A stretch of DNA of 8,774 nucleotides from Bacillota bacterium (lineage in GTDB: Bacteria > Eremiobacterota > SpSt-956 > JAKJGF01). This document shows, piece by piece, positions 1,732 through 8,774 of the stretch. Positions within the stretch are counted from its first letter, which is position 1; every line of letters begins with the position of its first letter. Under the pieces are notes generated by a model. It was not told the DNA's origin and made no database searches. It saw only the letters and a list, made by a program, of their open reading frames with translations. The DNA is taken from the NCBI GenBank assembly GCA_029555925.1, contig JAKPQU010000275.1, forward strand, positions 1-8,774, read 5' to 3'. The translations under genes were made by a program, and so were the position numbers.

Positions 1732-3765
1732 ATGGCTAACATAGGAGTATTTGTATGCTGGTGCGGCTCAAATATAGCCCAGACTGTTGACGTAGGGGCT
1801 GTAGCAAAAGCTGCAGGAGAATTTAAAGATGTAGTTTATGCAGTAGATTATAAATATATGTGTTCCAGCCCGGGACAAAATCTGATGATTGATGCCATTA
1901 AAACTCATAATCTTGATGGAGTTGTCATAGCTTCCTGCTCTCCCAGAATGCATGAGTCGACCTTCCGTTCTGCTGCAGTACTGGCAGGTTTTAATCCCTA
2001 TATGGTAGAAATGGCAAATCTTCGTGAACACTGTTCCTGGGTTCATGATAACAGAGAAGAGGCTACAAAGAAAGCCATTGAACTGGTGAGAATGCTTGTA
2101 GCCAAAGTGGCGAGGAATGCACCTCTTAATAAAATTCATGTGCCTGTTACAAGGAGAGCCCTTGTAATAGGAGGAGGTATTGCAGGCATACAGGCAGCCC
2201 TTGATATAGCAAACGGCGGTGTGGAAGTTATAATGGTTGAGAAAGAACCCAGCATCGGAGGGCATATGTCTCAGCTTGATGAAACCTTCCCTACCCTTGA
2301 CTGTTCCCAGTGTATCCTTACACCGAGAATGGTGGAAGTGGCAACCCACAAGAATATAACCCTTTACGCCTACTCAGAAGTAGACAGCGTACAGGGCTTT
2401 GTAGGGAACTTCAAGGTTAAAATAAGAAGAAAAGCCAAGTGTGTAATAGAAGAAATCTGCACAGGATGCGGATTGTGTACCCAGAAATGTCCTGTAGGAA
2501 AAAAAGGCGAGGTAATGAATGAATTCGAACTGGGCATGGCTCCCAGACCTGCCATTTACACTCCCTTCCCACAGGCAGTTCCCAATATTCCTGTCATAGA
2601 TAAAGAACACTGCACTTACTTTAAAACAGGTAAATGCGGTGTATGTGAAAAGGTCTGTGTGGCAAAGGCTATAGACTTCAAGCAGGAAGACAGGATTGTA
2701 GAAGAAGAAGTCGGAGCCATAATAGTTGCCACAGGATATGACCTGTACGGTAAAGATAAATATGCAGAATACGGATATGGAAAATTCAAGGATGTCATAA
2801 GCGGTCTCGAATTCGAAAGAATGGTCAGTGCATCAGGTCCTACAAAGGGAAAGGTTCAGAGACCATCAAACGGGAAGCCTCCAAAGAATGTTGTATTTAT
2901 AAAATGTGTTGGCTCCCGTGATGAAAAACATGGAATTTCTTACTGTTCGAAAATATGCTGTATGTATACGGCCAAACATGCCATGCTGCTCCATCATAAA
3001 TGTCATGGGGCAAAGGCATATATATTCTATATGGATATAAGAGCTACGGGAAAGGGTTATGAAGAATTTGTAAAACGTGCCATGGAAGAAGAAGAGGCAA
3101 TTTATATAAGAGGCAGAGTATCCCGTATATATAAAAGAGGAGATAATCTTATAGTACAGGGAGTAGATACCCTTACAGGCCAGCAGGTGGAAGTGGAAGC
3201 AGACCTGGTAGTTCTTGCCACTGCCATAGTGGCAAAGAGCGGTGCAGATAAGCTGGCTCAAATGCTGAATATTTCCTATGACACTCATAATTTTTACAAT
3301 GAAGCCCATCCCAAGCTCAGGCCTGTAGAAACAAACACTGCAGGTATATTCCTTGCAGGCTGCTGTCAGGCTCCCAAAGATATTCCCGACTCTGTAAGTC
3401 AGGGATCTGCAGCGGCATCGAAAGCCCTGGCAATGTTCTCAAATAAAGAACTTGAAAGAGAACCTCTTGTTTCAAGAGTTACAGAGGAATACTGCGTGGG
3501 ATGTCTCGCATGCCAGCCAGTATGTCCTTATAATGCCATAGAAGAACATGAAATTAAAGACAGAAAGGGAAATCTGATAAAGAAAGTGGCCCATGTAAAT
3601 GAAGGACTATGTATGGGATGCGGGGCATGTGCGGTGACATGCCGCTCGGGATGTATAGTTCTGGACGGATTTACAAATAACCAGATCTTCACTCAGATAA
3701 GTACCCTTGAAAATCTTATAACAAAGTTTGAACCGACAAAAGAAGAAGCAGTAGCAAAAAAATAG
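1732..3765 (+). CDS. hdrA: Heterodisulfide reductase-like subunit A (HdrA), FAD-dependent electron-bifurcating subunit
   Basis: This is the core flavoprotein that splits electron pairs between a disulfide (through HdrC/HdrB) and ferredoxin. The 677 residues match the usual length. In order they show an N-terminal HdrA domain with Cys9, Cys11, Cys44, Cys69 and Cys101, and the FAD Rossmann motif GGGIAG at 147-152. Then come the HdrA signature CSQCILTPRM (C191, C194), an inserted ferredoxin domain (C243, C246, C249, C253; C294, C302, C305, C309) and a second flavin-domain part with FIKCVGSRD (C392), C405 and C409/C410. A C-terminal two-cluster ferredoxin (C588, C591, C594, C598; C627, C630, C633, C637) ends the protein. 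No ligand appears lost and there is no in-frame TGA suggesting selenocysteine. A strong purine-rich ribosome-binding site (AAGAAAGGATGG) lies just before ATG. The next gene, flxD, encodes the docking partner expected for HdrA. Confidence 0.95.
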   Translation: MANIGVFVCWCGSNIAQTVDVGAVAKAAGEFKDVVYAVDYKYMCSSPGQNLMIDAIKTHNLDGVVIASCSPRMHESTFRSAAVLAGFNPYMVEMANLREHCSWVHDNREEATKKAIELVRMLVAKVARNAPLNKIHVPVTRRALVIGGGIAGIQAALDIANGGVEVIMVEKEPSIGGHMSQLDETFPTLDCSQCILTPRMVEVATHKNITLYAYSEVDSVQGFVGNFKVKIRRKAKCVIEEICTGCGLCTQKCPVGKKGEVMNEFELGMAPRPAIYTPFPQAVPNIPVIDKEHCTYFKTGKCGVCEKVCVAKAIDFKQEDRIVEEEVGAIIVATGYDLYGKDKYAEYGYGKFKDVISGLEFERMVSASGPTKGKVQRPSNGKPPKNVVFIKCVGSRDEKHGISYCSKICCMYTAKHAMLLHHKCHGAKAYIFYMDIRATGKGYEEFVKRAMEEEEAIYIRGRVSRIYKRGDNLIVQGVDTLTGQQVEVEADLVVLATAIVAKSGADKLAQMLNISYDTHNFYNEAHPKLRPVETNTAGIFLAGCCQAPKDIPDSVSQGSAAASKALAMFSNKELEREPLVSRVTEEYCVGCLACQPVCPYNAIEEHEIKDRKGNLIKKVAHVNEGLCMGCGACAVTCRSGCIVLDGFTNNQIFTQISTLENLITKFEPTKEEAVAKK

Positions 3766-3768
3766 AAA

Positions 3769-3827
3769 AGCAGTCAGCCATCAGCAGTCAGCTTTTGCAG
3801 ATAGCTGATAACTGAAGGCTGATAGCT
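3769..3827. repeat. Imperfect inverted repeat of heptamers between hdrA and flxD
   Basis: The left arm 3769-3793 contains CAGTCAG, CCATCAG and CAGTCAG; the right arm 3803-3827 contains CTGATAA, CTGAAGG and CTGATAG. The two 25-nt arms match at 19 positions when one is reverse-complemented, around a 9-nt loop. No U-run follows, so transcription probably continues into flxD. An effect on mRNA stability or processing at the hdr/flx boundary is possible but not shown. Confidence 0.75.
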
Positions 3828-3850
3828 TAAAAGAAAGGCAGCAAGTAATT

Positions 3851-4282
3851 ATGGAAGATAAATCTACAAAATCAGTATGGGAACCGAGAATAGTAGGTTT
3901 TGTCTGTAACTGGTGTACCTATGCAGGAGCAGATCTTGCAGGAACAAGCAGACTTAAATATCCTCCCAATGTGAGACTCATCAGACTGCCCTGTACAGGA
4001 GCTATTGACCCTCTCTTTATAGTCAAAGCTTTTCAGTCAGGTGCAGATGCAGTCCTTGTATCAGGGTGTCATCCTGCTGACTGCCATTATACGAGCGGAA
4101 ATTATCATGCAAGAAGAAAACTTACAGTATTTCGTGATCTTCTGGAATATACGGGACTGGATCCGAAACGGTTCTGGATGTCCTGGATAAGTGCGTCGGA
4201 AGGACAGAAATTTGCAAGTTTCATGGAAGAAATAGTGGCAGAAACAAAAAAACTCGGCCCTCTTAAAGGATATAACAACTAG
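3851..4282 (+). CDS. flxD: MvhD-like 2Fe-2S electron-transfer protein (FlxD)
   Basis: This small cytoplasmic protein docks on HdrA and delivers electrons to its FAD. The 143 residues match MvhD/FrhD-family size. It has the family's cysteine pattern, C19-N-W-C22 near the N terminus, C48 in LPCTGAID, C73 in SGCHPADC and C78, which supports a 2Fe-2S cluster. The segments FVCNWCTYAGADLAG and SGCHPADCHY are characteristic. In methanogens MvhD couples Hdr to the MvhAG hydrogenase. No hydrogenase gene is present here, and the genes downstream are NAD(P)H-linked, so it is named FlxD by context. A weak GAAAGG ribosome-binding site lies 12 nt before ATG. The stop codon shares its last base with the first octamer of the array that follows. 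Confidence 0.93.
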   Translation: MEDKSTKSVWEPRIVGFVCNWCTYAGADLAGTSRLKYPPNVRLIRLPCTGAIDPLFIVKAFQSGADAVLVSGCHPADCHYTSGNYHARRKLTVFRDLLEYTGLDPKRFWMSWISASEGQKFASFMEEIVAETKKLGPLKGYNN

Positions 4283-4313
4283 CAGGTCAGCAGGTCAGCA
4301 GGTCAGCAGGTCA
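4282..4313. repeat. Tandem octamer array, GCAGGTCA x4
   Basis: Four perfect head-to-tail copies of GCAGGTCA begin at the last base of the flxD stop codon and are followed by GCC. The reverse complement TGACCTGC agrees at 6 of 8 positions with TGAAATGC, the unit of the array 11 nt downstream, so the two arrays can form a long imperfect hairpin. The short perfect period suggests recent slippage expansion. Confidence 0.9.
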
Positions 4314-4324
4314 GCCAAAAAACC

Positions 4325-4388
4325 CGAAATGCCGAAATGCTGAAATGCTGAAATGCTGAATTGCCGAAATGCTGAAATGCTGAATTGC
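4325..4388. repeat. Tandem octamer array, (C/T)GAA(A/T)TGC x8
   Basis: There are eight contiguous 8-nt units: CGAAATGC twice, TGAAATGC twice, TGAATTGC, CGAAATGC, TGAAATGC and TGAATTGC. Differences fall only at positions 1 and 5 of the unit. The array ends 7 nt before the AAAGGAG ribosome-binding site of flxC (4396-4402). Units can pair with the preceding GCAGGTCA array; TGAATTGC pairs best, leaving one mismatch and one wobble per unit. Confidence 0.9.
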
Positions 4389-4411
4389 TAAAATAAAAGG
4401 AGTATTACTCT

Positions 4412-7360: not shown

Positions 7361-7424
7361 GAGTGAAAAGTGAAAAGTGAAAAGAATAGGATATTACTCA
7401 CTTTTCACTTTTCACTTTTCACTC
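7361..7424. repeat. Perfect 24-bp inverted repeat of GTGAAAA heptamers
   Basis: The left arm 7361-7384 is built of three 7-nt AGTGAAA-type units and the right arm 7401-7424 is its exact reverse complement, around a 16-nt loop (7385-7400). One further A-T pair extends it at 7360/7425. It starts 3 nt after the flxA stop. As RNA it would be a very stable hairpin, but no U-run follows on the plus strand, so termination by the standard mechanism is doubtful. It may partly insulate the nitroreductase gene from the operon or protect the 3' end of the hdr-flx mRNA. Confidence 0.92.
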
Positions 7425-7438
7425 TAAAACATAAAATA

Positions 7439-7453: not shown

Positions 7454-8239
7454 ATGTCAACTATAACAATTTCTCAGGGAAAGTGTACCCTATGCGGTAT
7501 GTGTATTTTAGAATGTCCGGCAGGAATCTTTAATAAAAATGAGCACATAACAACTGTAGAAGATGCAGAGACTAAATGTATAAACTGCGGACACTGTATG
7601 AGTATATGTCCCGTTGAAGCCGTAACTCTTCCCTCTGCACAACCAGGTCAGCTTGTACCGATAGATAAAAATTTGAATGTAAGTAAAGAACATATAGGCC
7701 AGTTCTTAAAATCCAATCGTTCCATGAGGCAGTATAAAGACATAGAGGTTACGAAAGAAGTAATTGCAGAAATTATGGATATTACCAGATATGCCCCGAG
7801 TGCAAGAAACCTGGAACCAATCCACTGGATTATAACTAAAACCAGAAAAGAAACTGCATATCTTGCAGATCTTACGGCAAAAGGGATGGCCGATCTGGAT
7901 AGATATGGCAAAATGGCGGAATTTCATACGCCGGAAAATGATATTGTATTCAGAGGAGCACCACATGTTATTATAGCCCATGCAAACAGCGAAGGTTTCA
8001 TTCCCTATGTAGACTGCACCATCGGAATTACTTATTTTGATCTCGCTGCAAACAGTTTCGGTCTGGGCACTTGCTGGGCAGGTATTTTCATGCTCGTAGC
8101 AGACAAATACTCTCCCATTGCGGATTATCTGAAACTGCCGGAAGGTCATAAGGTCTACGGGGCAATGATGTTCGGATATCCGAAATATGAATATAAAAGA
8201 ATCCCGGAAAGACATAAAGCAAGAGTCAAATTTATCTAA
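7454..8239 (+). CDS. Ferredoxin-nitroreductase fusion (2x[4Fe-4S] domain plus FMN nitroreductase domain)
   Basis: This is a predicted cytoplasmic FMN enzyme that takes electrons through its own ferredoxin domain. Of 261 residues, the first 60 hold two clusters, C11-x2-C14-x2-C17-x3-C21-P and C42-x2-C45-x2-C48-x3-C52-P. Residues from about 83 onward form a nitroreductase domain with RSMRQYKD (89-96), the FMN-contact region APSARNLEPIHW (114-125) and GLGTCWAGIF near the C-terminal third. Domain order and length match the ferredoxin-fused nitroreductase family common in anaerobes. The true substrate is unknown; family members reduce nitro compounds, flavins or other acceptors. It follows the bifurcating complex on the same strand after 95 nt, so it could draw on ferredoxin reduced by that complex, although the 24-bp hairpin may separate the transcripts. 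No intrinsic terminator is seen after it. Confidence 0.9.
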   Translation: MSTITISQGKCTLCGMCILECPAGIFNKNEHITTVEDAETKCINCGHCMSICPVEAVTLPSAQPGQLVPIDKNLNVSKEHIGQFLKSNRSMRQYKDIEVTKEVIAEIMDITRYAPSARNLEPIHWIITKTRKETAYLADLTAKGMADLDRYGKMAEFHTPENDIVFRGAPHVIIAHANSEGFIPYVDCTIGITYFDLAANSFGLGTCWAGIFMLVADKYSPIADYLKLPEGHKVYGAMMFGYPKYEYKRIPERHKARVKFI

Positions 8240-8246
8240 ATAAAAC

Positions 8247-8385
8247 AGAGAAGATATGCGAGTTAAAGTTGCTGATTGTGGTTTTGCTACAGGAATCGAA
8301 CCTGTTACACAGAGATTAATGTCTCCTGCTCTACCAGATGAGCTAAGCTGCGTGTAAGCAACTTACGTTATAGCATATCTCCTCT
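8247..8385 (-). ncRNA. tRNA-like structured RNA with long flanking helices
   Basis: On the minus strand this contains recognisable tRNA parts: a D-arm (GCTC, ATCTGGTA, GAGC; about 8343-8328), a stem-loop in the anticodon-arm position (GGAGA, CATTAA, TCTCT; 8326-8311) and a T-arm (ACAGG, TTCGATT, CCTGT; 8305-8289). The acceptor stem is nearly absent, with only GCT/AGC pairing, and the anticodon-position loop has 6 nt and lacks U33. Outside the cloverleaf, AAGTTGCT (8364-8357) pairs with AGCAACTT (8273-8266). Further out, a 13-bp helix joins 8385-8373 to 8259-8247, with one G-T wobble that is a pair only in minus-strand RNA. GTTTTATTT follows the 3' side. No mature CCA-ended tRNA is obvious. 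Alternatives are a degenerate tRNA gene or a tRNA-mimic regulatory RNA. Confidence 0.6.
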
Positions 8386-8391
8386 ATGTTT

Positions 8392-8420
8392 ATTATATCA
8401 TATAATTAGTGAATAGTGAA
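8392..8420 (-). promoter_or_regulatory. Promoter of the tRNA-like RNA
   Basis: Minus-strand TATAAT (8392-8397) lies 17 nt downstream of TTCACT (8415-8420), a 4/6 match to the -35 consensus TTGACA. Transcription would begin near 8385, exactly at the 5' base of the 13-bp terminal helix. The -35 hexamer is itself part of the TAGTGAA heptamer repeats. Confidence 0.55.
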
Positions 8421-8467
8421 TAGTGAAAAATAGAAAGTAAATAAAATCTTTTTTTCACTTTTCACTA
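8407..8467. repeat. TAGTGAA heptamers and inverted repeat
   Basis: Three TAGTGAA units start at 8407, 8414 and 8421. The segment 8414-8430 is inversely repeated at 8451-8467 with one mismatch in 17, around a 20-nt loop. The right arm reaches exactly to the stop codon of the truncated minus-strand gene. It may act as a 3'-end hairpin for that gene, and it supplies the -35 region for the RNA gene downstream. The unit is related to the GTGAAAA repeat after flxA. Confidence 0.8.
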
Positions 8468-8620
8468 TAAAAGTAATTCTCTCTTATAGGCAAAAATAGC
8501 AGGAAGTCCTCCCGTATGAAGAAAAACAATTGTTTCGTCTTTTCCTATAAGGCCTTTCCTTATAAAGTCAATAAGACCTGCCATGGCTTTACCGGTATAA
8601 ACAGGATCTAATACCAAATT
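8465..8620 (-). pseudogene. C-terminal fragment of a D-cysteine desulfhydrase/ACC deaminase-family PLP enzyme
   Basis: The minus-strand frame ending in TAG (8465-8467) encodes about 51 residues. They include [20 protein letters not shown] followed by [13 protein letters not shown], the highly conserved C-terminal part of D-cysteine desulfhydrase/1-aminocyclopropane-1-carboxylate deaminase-type PLP enzymes. These are normally about 330 residues, so roughly 280 are missing. Going upstream, homology stops near 8618 and an in-frame TAA lies at 8624-8626. The other two minus-strand frames do not restore the expected upstream segment. The fragment lacks the PLP lysine region and cannot be active. 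A deletion, an insertion just outside this point, or a misjoined contig end could each explain it. Confidence 0.75.
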
Positions 8621-8774
8621 GCTTTACTTAAATTGAACAATTTGAATAATAGGTAAATACTGTCTGCCTGCCTGATGCTCCTCCGAAAAAAATCTAAACT
8701 GGAACGTTTATAACAGTTACAGCTTATATCATGCTACTTTACATTATAATTCAATAAAATATACCTGTGCTGCC
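8621..8774. other. Unassigned sequence at the window edge
   Basis: No gene is recognised in this stretch. It abuts the broken desulfhydrase gene and has stops in the relevant minus-strand frame. A small AAATTG/CAATTT hairpin lies at about 8629-8642. It may be part of an inserted element that extends beyond the window, or an assembly artefact. Confidence 0.4.

Follow-up and report, generated by a model that had tools for sequence, protein, structure and literature searches.

A tRNA-Lys-like core enclosed by its own paired flanks on a bacterial contig: a candidate acceptor-less tRNA mimic

Architecture of the minus-strand element

What is a tRNA-like segment that retains its D and T arms, has only three acceptor pairs and is closed instead by two longer helices: a tRNA, the remains of one, or a structured RNA of another kind? 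The question is raised by positions 8387-8245 on the minus strand of the window (the whole stretch of DNA that was analysed, 8,774 nucleotides), where a tRNA core is found with its arms in the canonical order, D, anticodon-like and T. A preliminary description had placed here a minus-strand tRNA-like core with a 3-bp acceptor enclosed by two outer helices, and every element that it named was recovered. Its length for the inner helix, 8 bp, stands, whereas the outer helix, which it had counted as 13 bp, actually has 15. The elements are as follows, in window positions.

8373..8387, minus strand: outer helix, 5' strand; 15 bp, paired with 8259-8245, two pairs being G-U
8245..8259, minus strand: outer helix, 3' strand; 15 bp
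8357..8364, minus strand: inner helix, 5' strand; 8 bp, all Watson-Crick, paired with 8273-8266
8266..8273, minus strand: inner helix, 3' strand; 8 bp
8346..8348, minus strand: residual acceptor stem, 5' strand; 3 bp with 8288-8286, placed by sequence and Rfam alignment; ensemble probability 0.0
8286..8288, minus strand: residual acceptor stem, 3' strand; placed by sequence and Rfam alignment
8328..8343, minus strand: D arm; 4-bp stem, G18 and G19 present
8311..8326, minus strand: anticodon-like arm; 5-bp stem (one G-U), 6-nt loop CATTAA
8289..8305, minus strand: T arm; 5-bp stem, loop TTCGATT
8344..8365, minus strand: rival local hairpin; 8 bp, competing with the inner helix and the acceptor in the computed minimum free energy (MFE) fold

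Read from 5' to 3', the element opens with the outer 15-bp strand, an internal loop, the inner 8-bp strand, an 8-nt spacer, three acceptor nucleotides and U8 A9. It continues with the D arm, the anticodon-like arm, a 5-nt variable region, the T arm, the three opposite acceptor nucleotides and a 12-nt spacer, and it ends with the 3' strand of the 8-bp helix, the 3' strand of the 15-bp helix and a U-rich tract.

The structure is not what random sequence yields. The 145-nt stretch has an MFE of -48.6, whereas its shuffles average -29.44 (z -5.55), and 0 of 200 were as good. In 5000 dinucleotide shuffles of the two flanks only, neither the longest flank helix (15) nor the two-helix total (23) was reached once, the best shuffles giving 12 and 17. 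Stepping through both strands of the window in 2466 frames gave, as the two highest values, 15 and 13 for a single helix and 23 and 20 for two helices, where the top frame may be the locus itself. The inner helix, with its 8 Watson-Crick pairs, was reached in 68 of 20,000 mononucleotide shuffles. The outer helix exceeds chance; the inner helix is rare, and the evidence for it is weaker.

The same flanks can be read as imperfect inverted-repeat arms, 8234-8259 and 8373-8398, 26 nt long and 77% complementary, and a small mobile or repeated element (MITE-like) would consist of just such terminal repeats around a tRNA-derived core. We consider this origin improbable: a covariance model of the whole RNA gives one match in the window at E<=1, that is, no second copy there; two exact patterns gave 0 matches in viral contigs; and a target-site duplication is not obvious by eye.

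Relation of the core to tRNA genes

The near-textbook D-arm and T-arm sequences noted at the outset are borne out, both arms being present together with the nucleotides needed for the usual contacts of a tRNA core (8-14, 15-48, 18-55, 19-56, 54-58, 26-44, 13-22 and 22-46). The acceptor retains 3 of the canonical 7 pairs, its distal part being gone, and a CCA string follows the core one position out of register. The anticodon-like loop has 6 nt instead of the normal seven, its second residue is A, and there is no U33. That this is not a normal tRNA, as had been proposed, agrees with the gene finders. ARAGORN called no tRNA at the locus by default, one 'tRNA-?' without a proper anticodon at a relaxed threshold, and five in 200 nt in its permissive metazoan-mitochondrial mode, which we regard as noise. 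In Rfam, RF00005 is the sole match at gathering score, at 32.5 bits and over model positions 5-66 only.

A working tRNA could still be hidden here if the 8-bp helix served as the real acceptor and the 3-bp stem, together with both spacers, were inserts that are removed from the RNA. The 3-bp stem repeats the letters of the final three pairs of the 8-bp helix, and short direct repeats, GCTTA on one side and AGCAA on the opposite side, lie level with the would-be inserts. Against this stand the 6-nt anticodon loop lacking U33 and the absence of CCA past the 8-bp helix; moreover, we know of no bacterial process that removes such acceptor inserts. We judge an interrupted tRNA to be very improbable.

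The covariance model, built from the full-length RNA alone, to which it gives 187.7 bits, was run on sets of 9, 384, 297 and 294 genomes, which amount to 981 distinct genomes as three were counted twice. The sampled groups were the phyla of loci L001, L002 and L006 from the neighbour-gene route described below (record titles Planctomycetota, Omnitrophota and Solidesulfovibrio) and the six Methanolobus genomes to which the remaining loci of that route belong. For the window itself, the closest protein bearing an organism name (P0005, 89% over 68% of the query, scoring below P0001-P0004) is assigned to Candidatus Eremiobacterota. No homologue of the whole RNA was found in these 981 genomes. They all belong to groups other than the lineage of the window, so this absence says little about close relatives, and the stricter search filters applied to sets of more than 40 genomes mean that weak homologues could be missed. 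The best non-self score was 54.2 bits, and the matches were of tRNA type wherever checked. Genomes with a match at E<=1e-6 numbered 7 of 384, 3 of 297 and 1 of 294, and in the smallest set 2 of 9 had a match at E<=0.001. Eight of the 11 matching places in the three larger sets were examined, and all eight overlap ARAGORN tRNA genes. Seven of the eight span the full model (1-145), but their flanks contain gaps and broken pairs. A complete seven-pair acceptor is present in six of the full-length matches (L045, L046, L047, L049, L050 and L051), L052 being left unscored.

BLAST against phages returned 254 records at E<=1, none covering 80% of the query; among the best 30 of these 254, the lowest E-value (1e-7) falls at a tRNA-Lys gene, and the other rows listed are tRNA-Arg, tRNA-Met or without tRNA annotation. 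The 36 records obtained from plasmids likewise included none covering 80% of the query. A neighbour-gene route led to 9 loci at 33-43% identity, none of them from a record named as the lineage of the window, so synteny was not usable.

The nearest relatives of the core are tRNA-Lys genes. Among the 12 loci obtained by means of the whole-RNA model (L041-L052), ARAGORN identifies 9 as tRNA-Lys, two as tRNA-Gly and one as tRNA-Thr. The five tRNA-Lys genes that were scored (L045, L046, L047, L049 and L051) reach 57.6-77.7 bits on RF00005. Locus L052 has two ARAGORN tRNA calls at only 34.0 and 35.4 bits, and its tRNA-Thr call has an RF00005 match that is likewise truncated (6-65, 48.5 bits); a weak or acceptor-poor tRNA is therefore not unheard of. 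As a separate observation, L052, from the phylum of genome G001, is a dense cluster of 8 ARAGORN tRNAs, several at 34-51 bits and one with a truncated match; it resembles a tRNA array of the degenerate or phage type.

One possible answer to our question is that the locus is a degenerate tRNA-Lys-type gene, without present function, which lost its acceptor end and is enclosed, by history, in the spacer between two convergent genes, this spacer being palindromic or a bidirectional terminator. This is the main rival to a functional RNA, and we give it a substantial chance, although one well short of even. It is favoured by the weak, truncated tRNA score, by the 6-nt anticodon loop, by the shifted CCA, as in a damaged tRNA 3' end, by the lack of a homologue in the 981 genomes from other groups, and by the low-scoring and acceptor-truncated tRNAs of L052. 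It fits less well with the core stems and elbow letters, which are intact. The damage is limited to the acceptor and one loop, which is not what scattered decay is expected to leave, and under pure decay the two acceptor strands would need to have been replaced at matching levels.

Computed fold, promoter match and surroundings

The energy calculations also bear on this choice. No pair is missing from the D, anticodon-like or T stem. The computed ensemble gives the inner helix a probability of 0.19-0.22 and the 3-bp acceptor, which costs about 1 kcal/mol and brings no energy gain, one of 0.0. The energy models prefer the hairpin 8365-8344 over the inner helix plus acceptor, and 82 of 5000 mononucleotide shuffles contain a hairpin as long. 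By default, the tRNA-like fold is 5.4 kcal/mol less stable than the MFE fold (4.0-5.9 across four dangle settings), whereas the corresponding cloverleaf gap is 0-3.3 in 10 real tRNAs, cut out without their flanks; an eleventh, L044, was left out because the motif rule could not place its arms. This preference for the rival hairpin leaves three possibilities: rescue of the fold by tertiary contacts, an RNA with two states, or an inner helix that is not real. A computed fold that is not tRNA-like also speaks for a degenerate tRNA gene. Switching between two states through the rival 5' hairpin may occur, an idea that comes from the folding models.

Upstream of the outer helix, and past its 3' end, lie possible transcription signals on the same strand.

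8415..8420, minus strand: -35-like hexamer TTCACT; 10 of 12 consensus positions counted together with the -10
8392..8397, minus strand: -10 hexamer TATAAT with an upstream TGn (extended -10)
8238..8245, minus strand: U-rich tract TTTTATTT, placed where the helix ends; a possible transcription end, from sequence

The promoter match runs from 8420 to 8392 (TTCACT-17-TATAAT), and its predicted start, about 7 nt past the -10, falls near 8385, at the base of the outer helix. The TATAAT and the start at the helix base had been pointed out in the preliminary description, and the extended -10 match is indeed rightly placed. Three promoter-like sites were found in 8200-8774 against 2.2 expected from shuffling, a count so near chance that only the position of the 8420-8392 match is suggestive. 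The U-rich tract at 8238..8245 was not flagged by the terminator scan, which admits only loops of 3-8 nt.

The plus strand of the window carries HdrC-, HdrB- and HdrA-like genes, an FlpD-type gene, hydrogenase/sulfhydrogenase-type beta and gamma genes and a ferredoxin-nitroreductase gene, the names resting on Pfam or on NCBIfam matches that fall short of the NCBIfam cut-offs. The series ends at 8239, convergent with the RNA. Within it, at 1732-4282 (+), an HdrA2-like protein is split over two frames, its first 677 aa matching positions 2-642 of the NF040770 profile and the next gene (FlpD-like) matching 645-774. On the strand of the RNA and upstream of it, 8468-8617 encodes a 50-aa C-terminal remnant of a D-cysteine desulfhydrase/CuyA-type PLP enzyme, matching the profile from about position 276-289 on. 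No open frame of at least 25 aa lies beyond it in 8618-8774, which suggests a pseudogene, a rearrangement or an assembly break. Nothing suggestive of a functional link between the RNA and either the plus-strand genes or the remnant was seen. Runs of short repeats, some palindromic, were noted by eye between genes at 3770-3840, 4283-4390, 7362-7425 and 8407-8468 (repeat types GTGAAAA, TGAAATGC and CAGCAGGT); the last of these regions includes a palindrome at 8413-8468.

The adjoining remnant, the palindrome at 8413-8468 and the convergent gene order suit a degenerate tRNA gene in a palindromic spacer; the symmetry of the helices about the tRNA core and the rightly placed promoter match do not. 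Counting against a mimic are the lack of a homologue, the unfavourable ensemble, the shifted CCA, the adjoining gene remnant, the palindromes of the window and the near-chance promoter count. The intact core, the replaced acceptor and the helices centred on the core tip the balance slightly towards a functional RNA, a reading that is held back by the missing relatives and by the energy result.

Our preferred explanation, to which we give a little less than an even chance, is that the RNA is a tRNA-Lys-derived, acceptor-less tRNA mimic that may work like YrlA, the bacterial Y RNA, without being one. The preliminary interpretation is supported in part: the sequence and structure elements are shown, whereas a functional stand-alone RNA is a conjecture, and we infer its transcription, tRNA-shaped folding, protein binding and function. 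According to this model, a short non-coding RNA (some 140-148 nt), descended from a tRNA-Lys-type gene, would be transcribed from its own promoter, and its two ends would pair into a 15-bp handle. The acceptor end would have been replaced while the D/T elbow was kept and displayed at the tip of the long double-stranded handle; normal charging or CCA addition would then not be expected. A tRNA-elbow protein (PNPase or another nuclease, or else a modifying enzyme) might bind the elbow, and the RNA would act as a decoy or tether, by analogy with the role described for the tRNA-like domain of bacterial Y RNA, though with its arms unpermuted. Such an RNA may have two states owing to the rival 5' hairpin.

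Comparison with YrlA and other known RNA classes

No known class had been recognised at this locus, and this assessment held: the truncated tRNA is the only Rfam match at gathering score, and the nearest class, YrlA, does not fit. A tmRNA was considered and rejected, as the ARAGORN tmRNA search finds none and RF00023 does not appear at the Rfam gathering score; the Rfam listing of 8200-8450 to E 10 omits one lower-scoring, unnamed match of the tRNA clan. The likeness to tmRNA (RF00023) lies in a tRNA-like domain within a longer bacterial RNA, and tmRNA keeps the acceptor and the T arm and has no D stem. Riboswitch families are absent from the matches up to E 10 in 8200-8450, and in the window no gene lies downstream of the RNA on its strand, beyond mechanical minus-strand ORFs inside the operon. 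The yjdF riboswitch is a bacterial RNA reported (PMC9142559) to have an overall tRNA-like shape; it differs in being, by the same account, a ligand-binding riboswitch that regulates translation. The matches listed in the literature (subscription papers being mostly outside the scope) include no described bacterial RNA of the present architecture.

YrlA combines a tRNA-like domain with a large stem formed from both ends, in 90-150 nt, as set out in PMC8394870 (further background in PMC4726728 and PMC7790460). This general design is shared by the RNA described here and is the argument for reading it as a bacterial Y RNA bound by a Ro60/Rsr protein, a reading to which we nevertheless give hardly any credence. 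RF02553 has no match up to E 10 in 8200-8450 and, since this family belongs to no clan, it was not masked by the tRNA match. Five Ro-stem strings are absent from the minus strand of 8240-8400: CGAATG, CGAAT and CTTGTCG, taken from the RF02553 consensus, and CTTGACC and GTCCGAA, which we take to be vertebrate Y RNA motifs. The whole-RNA model, conversely, gave no match at E<=1 to 7 YrlA-model loci (of 20 fetched), and no TROVE domain was found among the 9 window proteins scanned. With this record and the different arm order, membership in YrlA was rejected.

Controls show how such searches behave. In the phylum of G001, 10 of 199 genomes have a TROVE match at E<=0.001, 9 of them over the cut-off; RF02553 matches (E<=0.001) occur in all 10 TROVE genomes, over the cut-off in 2, and in 8 of the 10 the RF02553 match is on the TROVE contig within about 1.5 kb. 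RF02553 also matches below the cut-off in 7 of 14 control genomes, among which only Deinobacterium chartae has a TROVE match, so a weak match at our locus would have meant little. As a side observation, three consecutive YrlA-model matches, L025, L031 and L038, lie no more than 2 kb from a TROVE match on contig 7 of genome G174; they score 60.6, 54.9 and 47.9 bits, all under the cut-off of 69 bits, and their arrangement suggests a Y RNA cluster.

Compared with a canonical tRNA of the Lys type (RF00005), the RNA has in common the D arm, the anticodon-like arm, the 5-nt variable region, the T arm and the core-contact letters; the canonical tRNA has a seven-pair acceptor, an in-register CCA and a seven-nt loop with U33, where 3 pairs, a shifted CCA and a 6-nt loop are found here. 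With YrlA it shares a D/T elbow on a long stem built from the RNA's own ends and a similar length (PMC8394870). YrlA is permuted, with the T arm, an acceptor hairpin, the D arm and conserved stem motifs in this order (RF02553 consensus; best matches of L021-L024), whereas the present RNA has the canonical order, joins its long stem on the acceptor side and has no YrlA stem motifs. It is conceivable, although we think it unlikely, that the RNA represents a new bacterial class of tRNA mimics, separate from the Y RNAs, unpermuted and with a long handle for an acceptor, which possibly switches between an elbow-presenting fold and a 5' hairpin with a free 3' strand, and is used to hold or titrate a tRNA-elbow-binding protein. 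If the mimic is real, it would be a warning that weak 'pseudo-tRNA' matches can conceal structured RNAs, and it would suggest that bacteria built acceptor-less tRNA mimics more than once, in two topologies, permuted in YrlA and unpermuted here. Such a recurrence would point to imitation of the elbow of the tRNA as such and not of any single protein partner.
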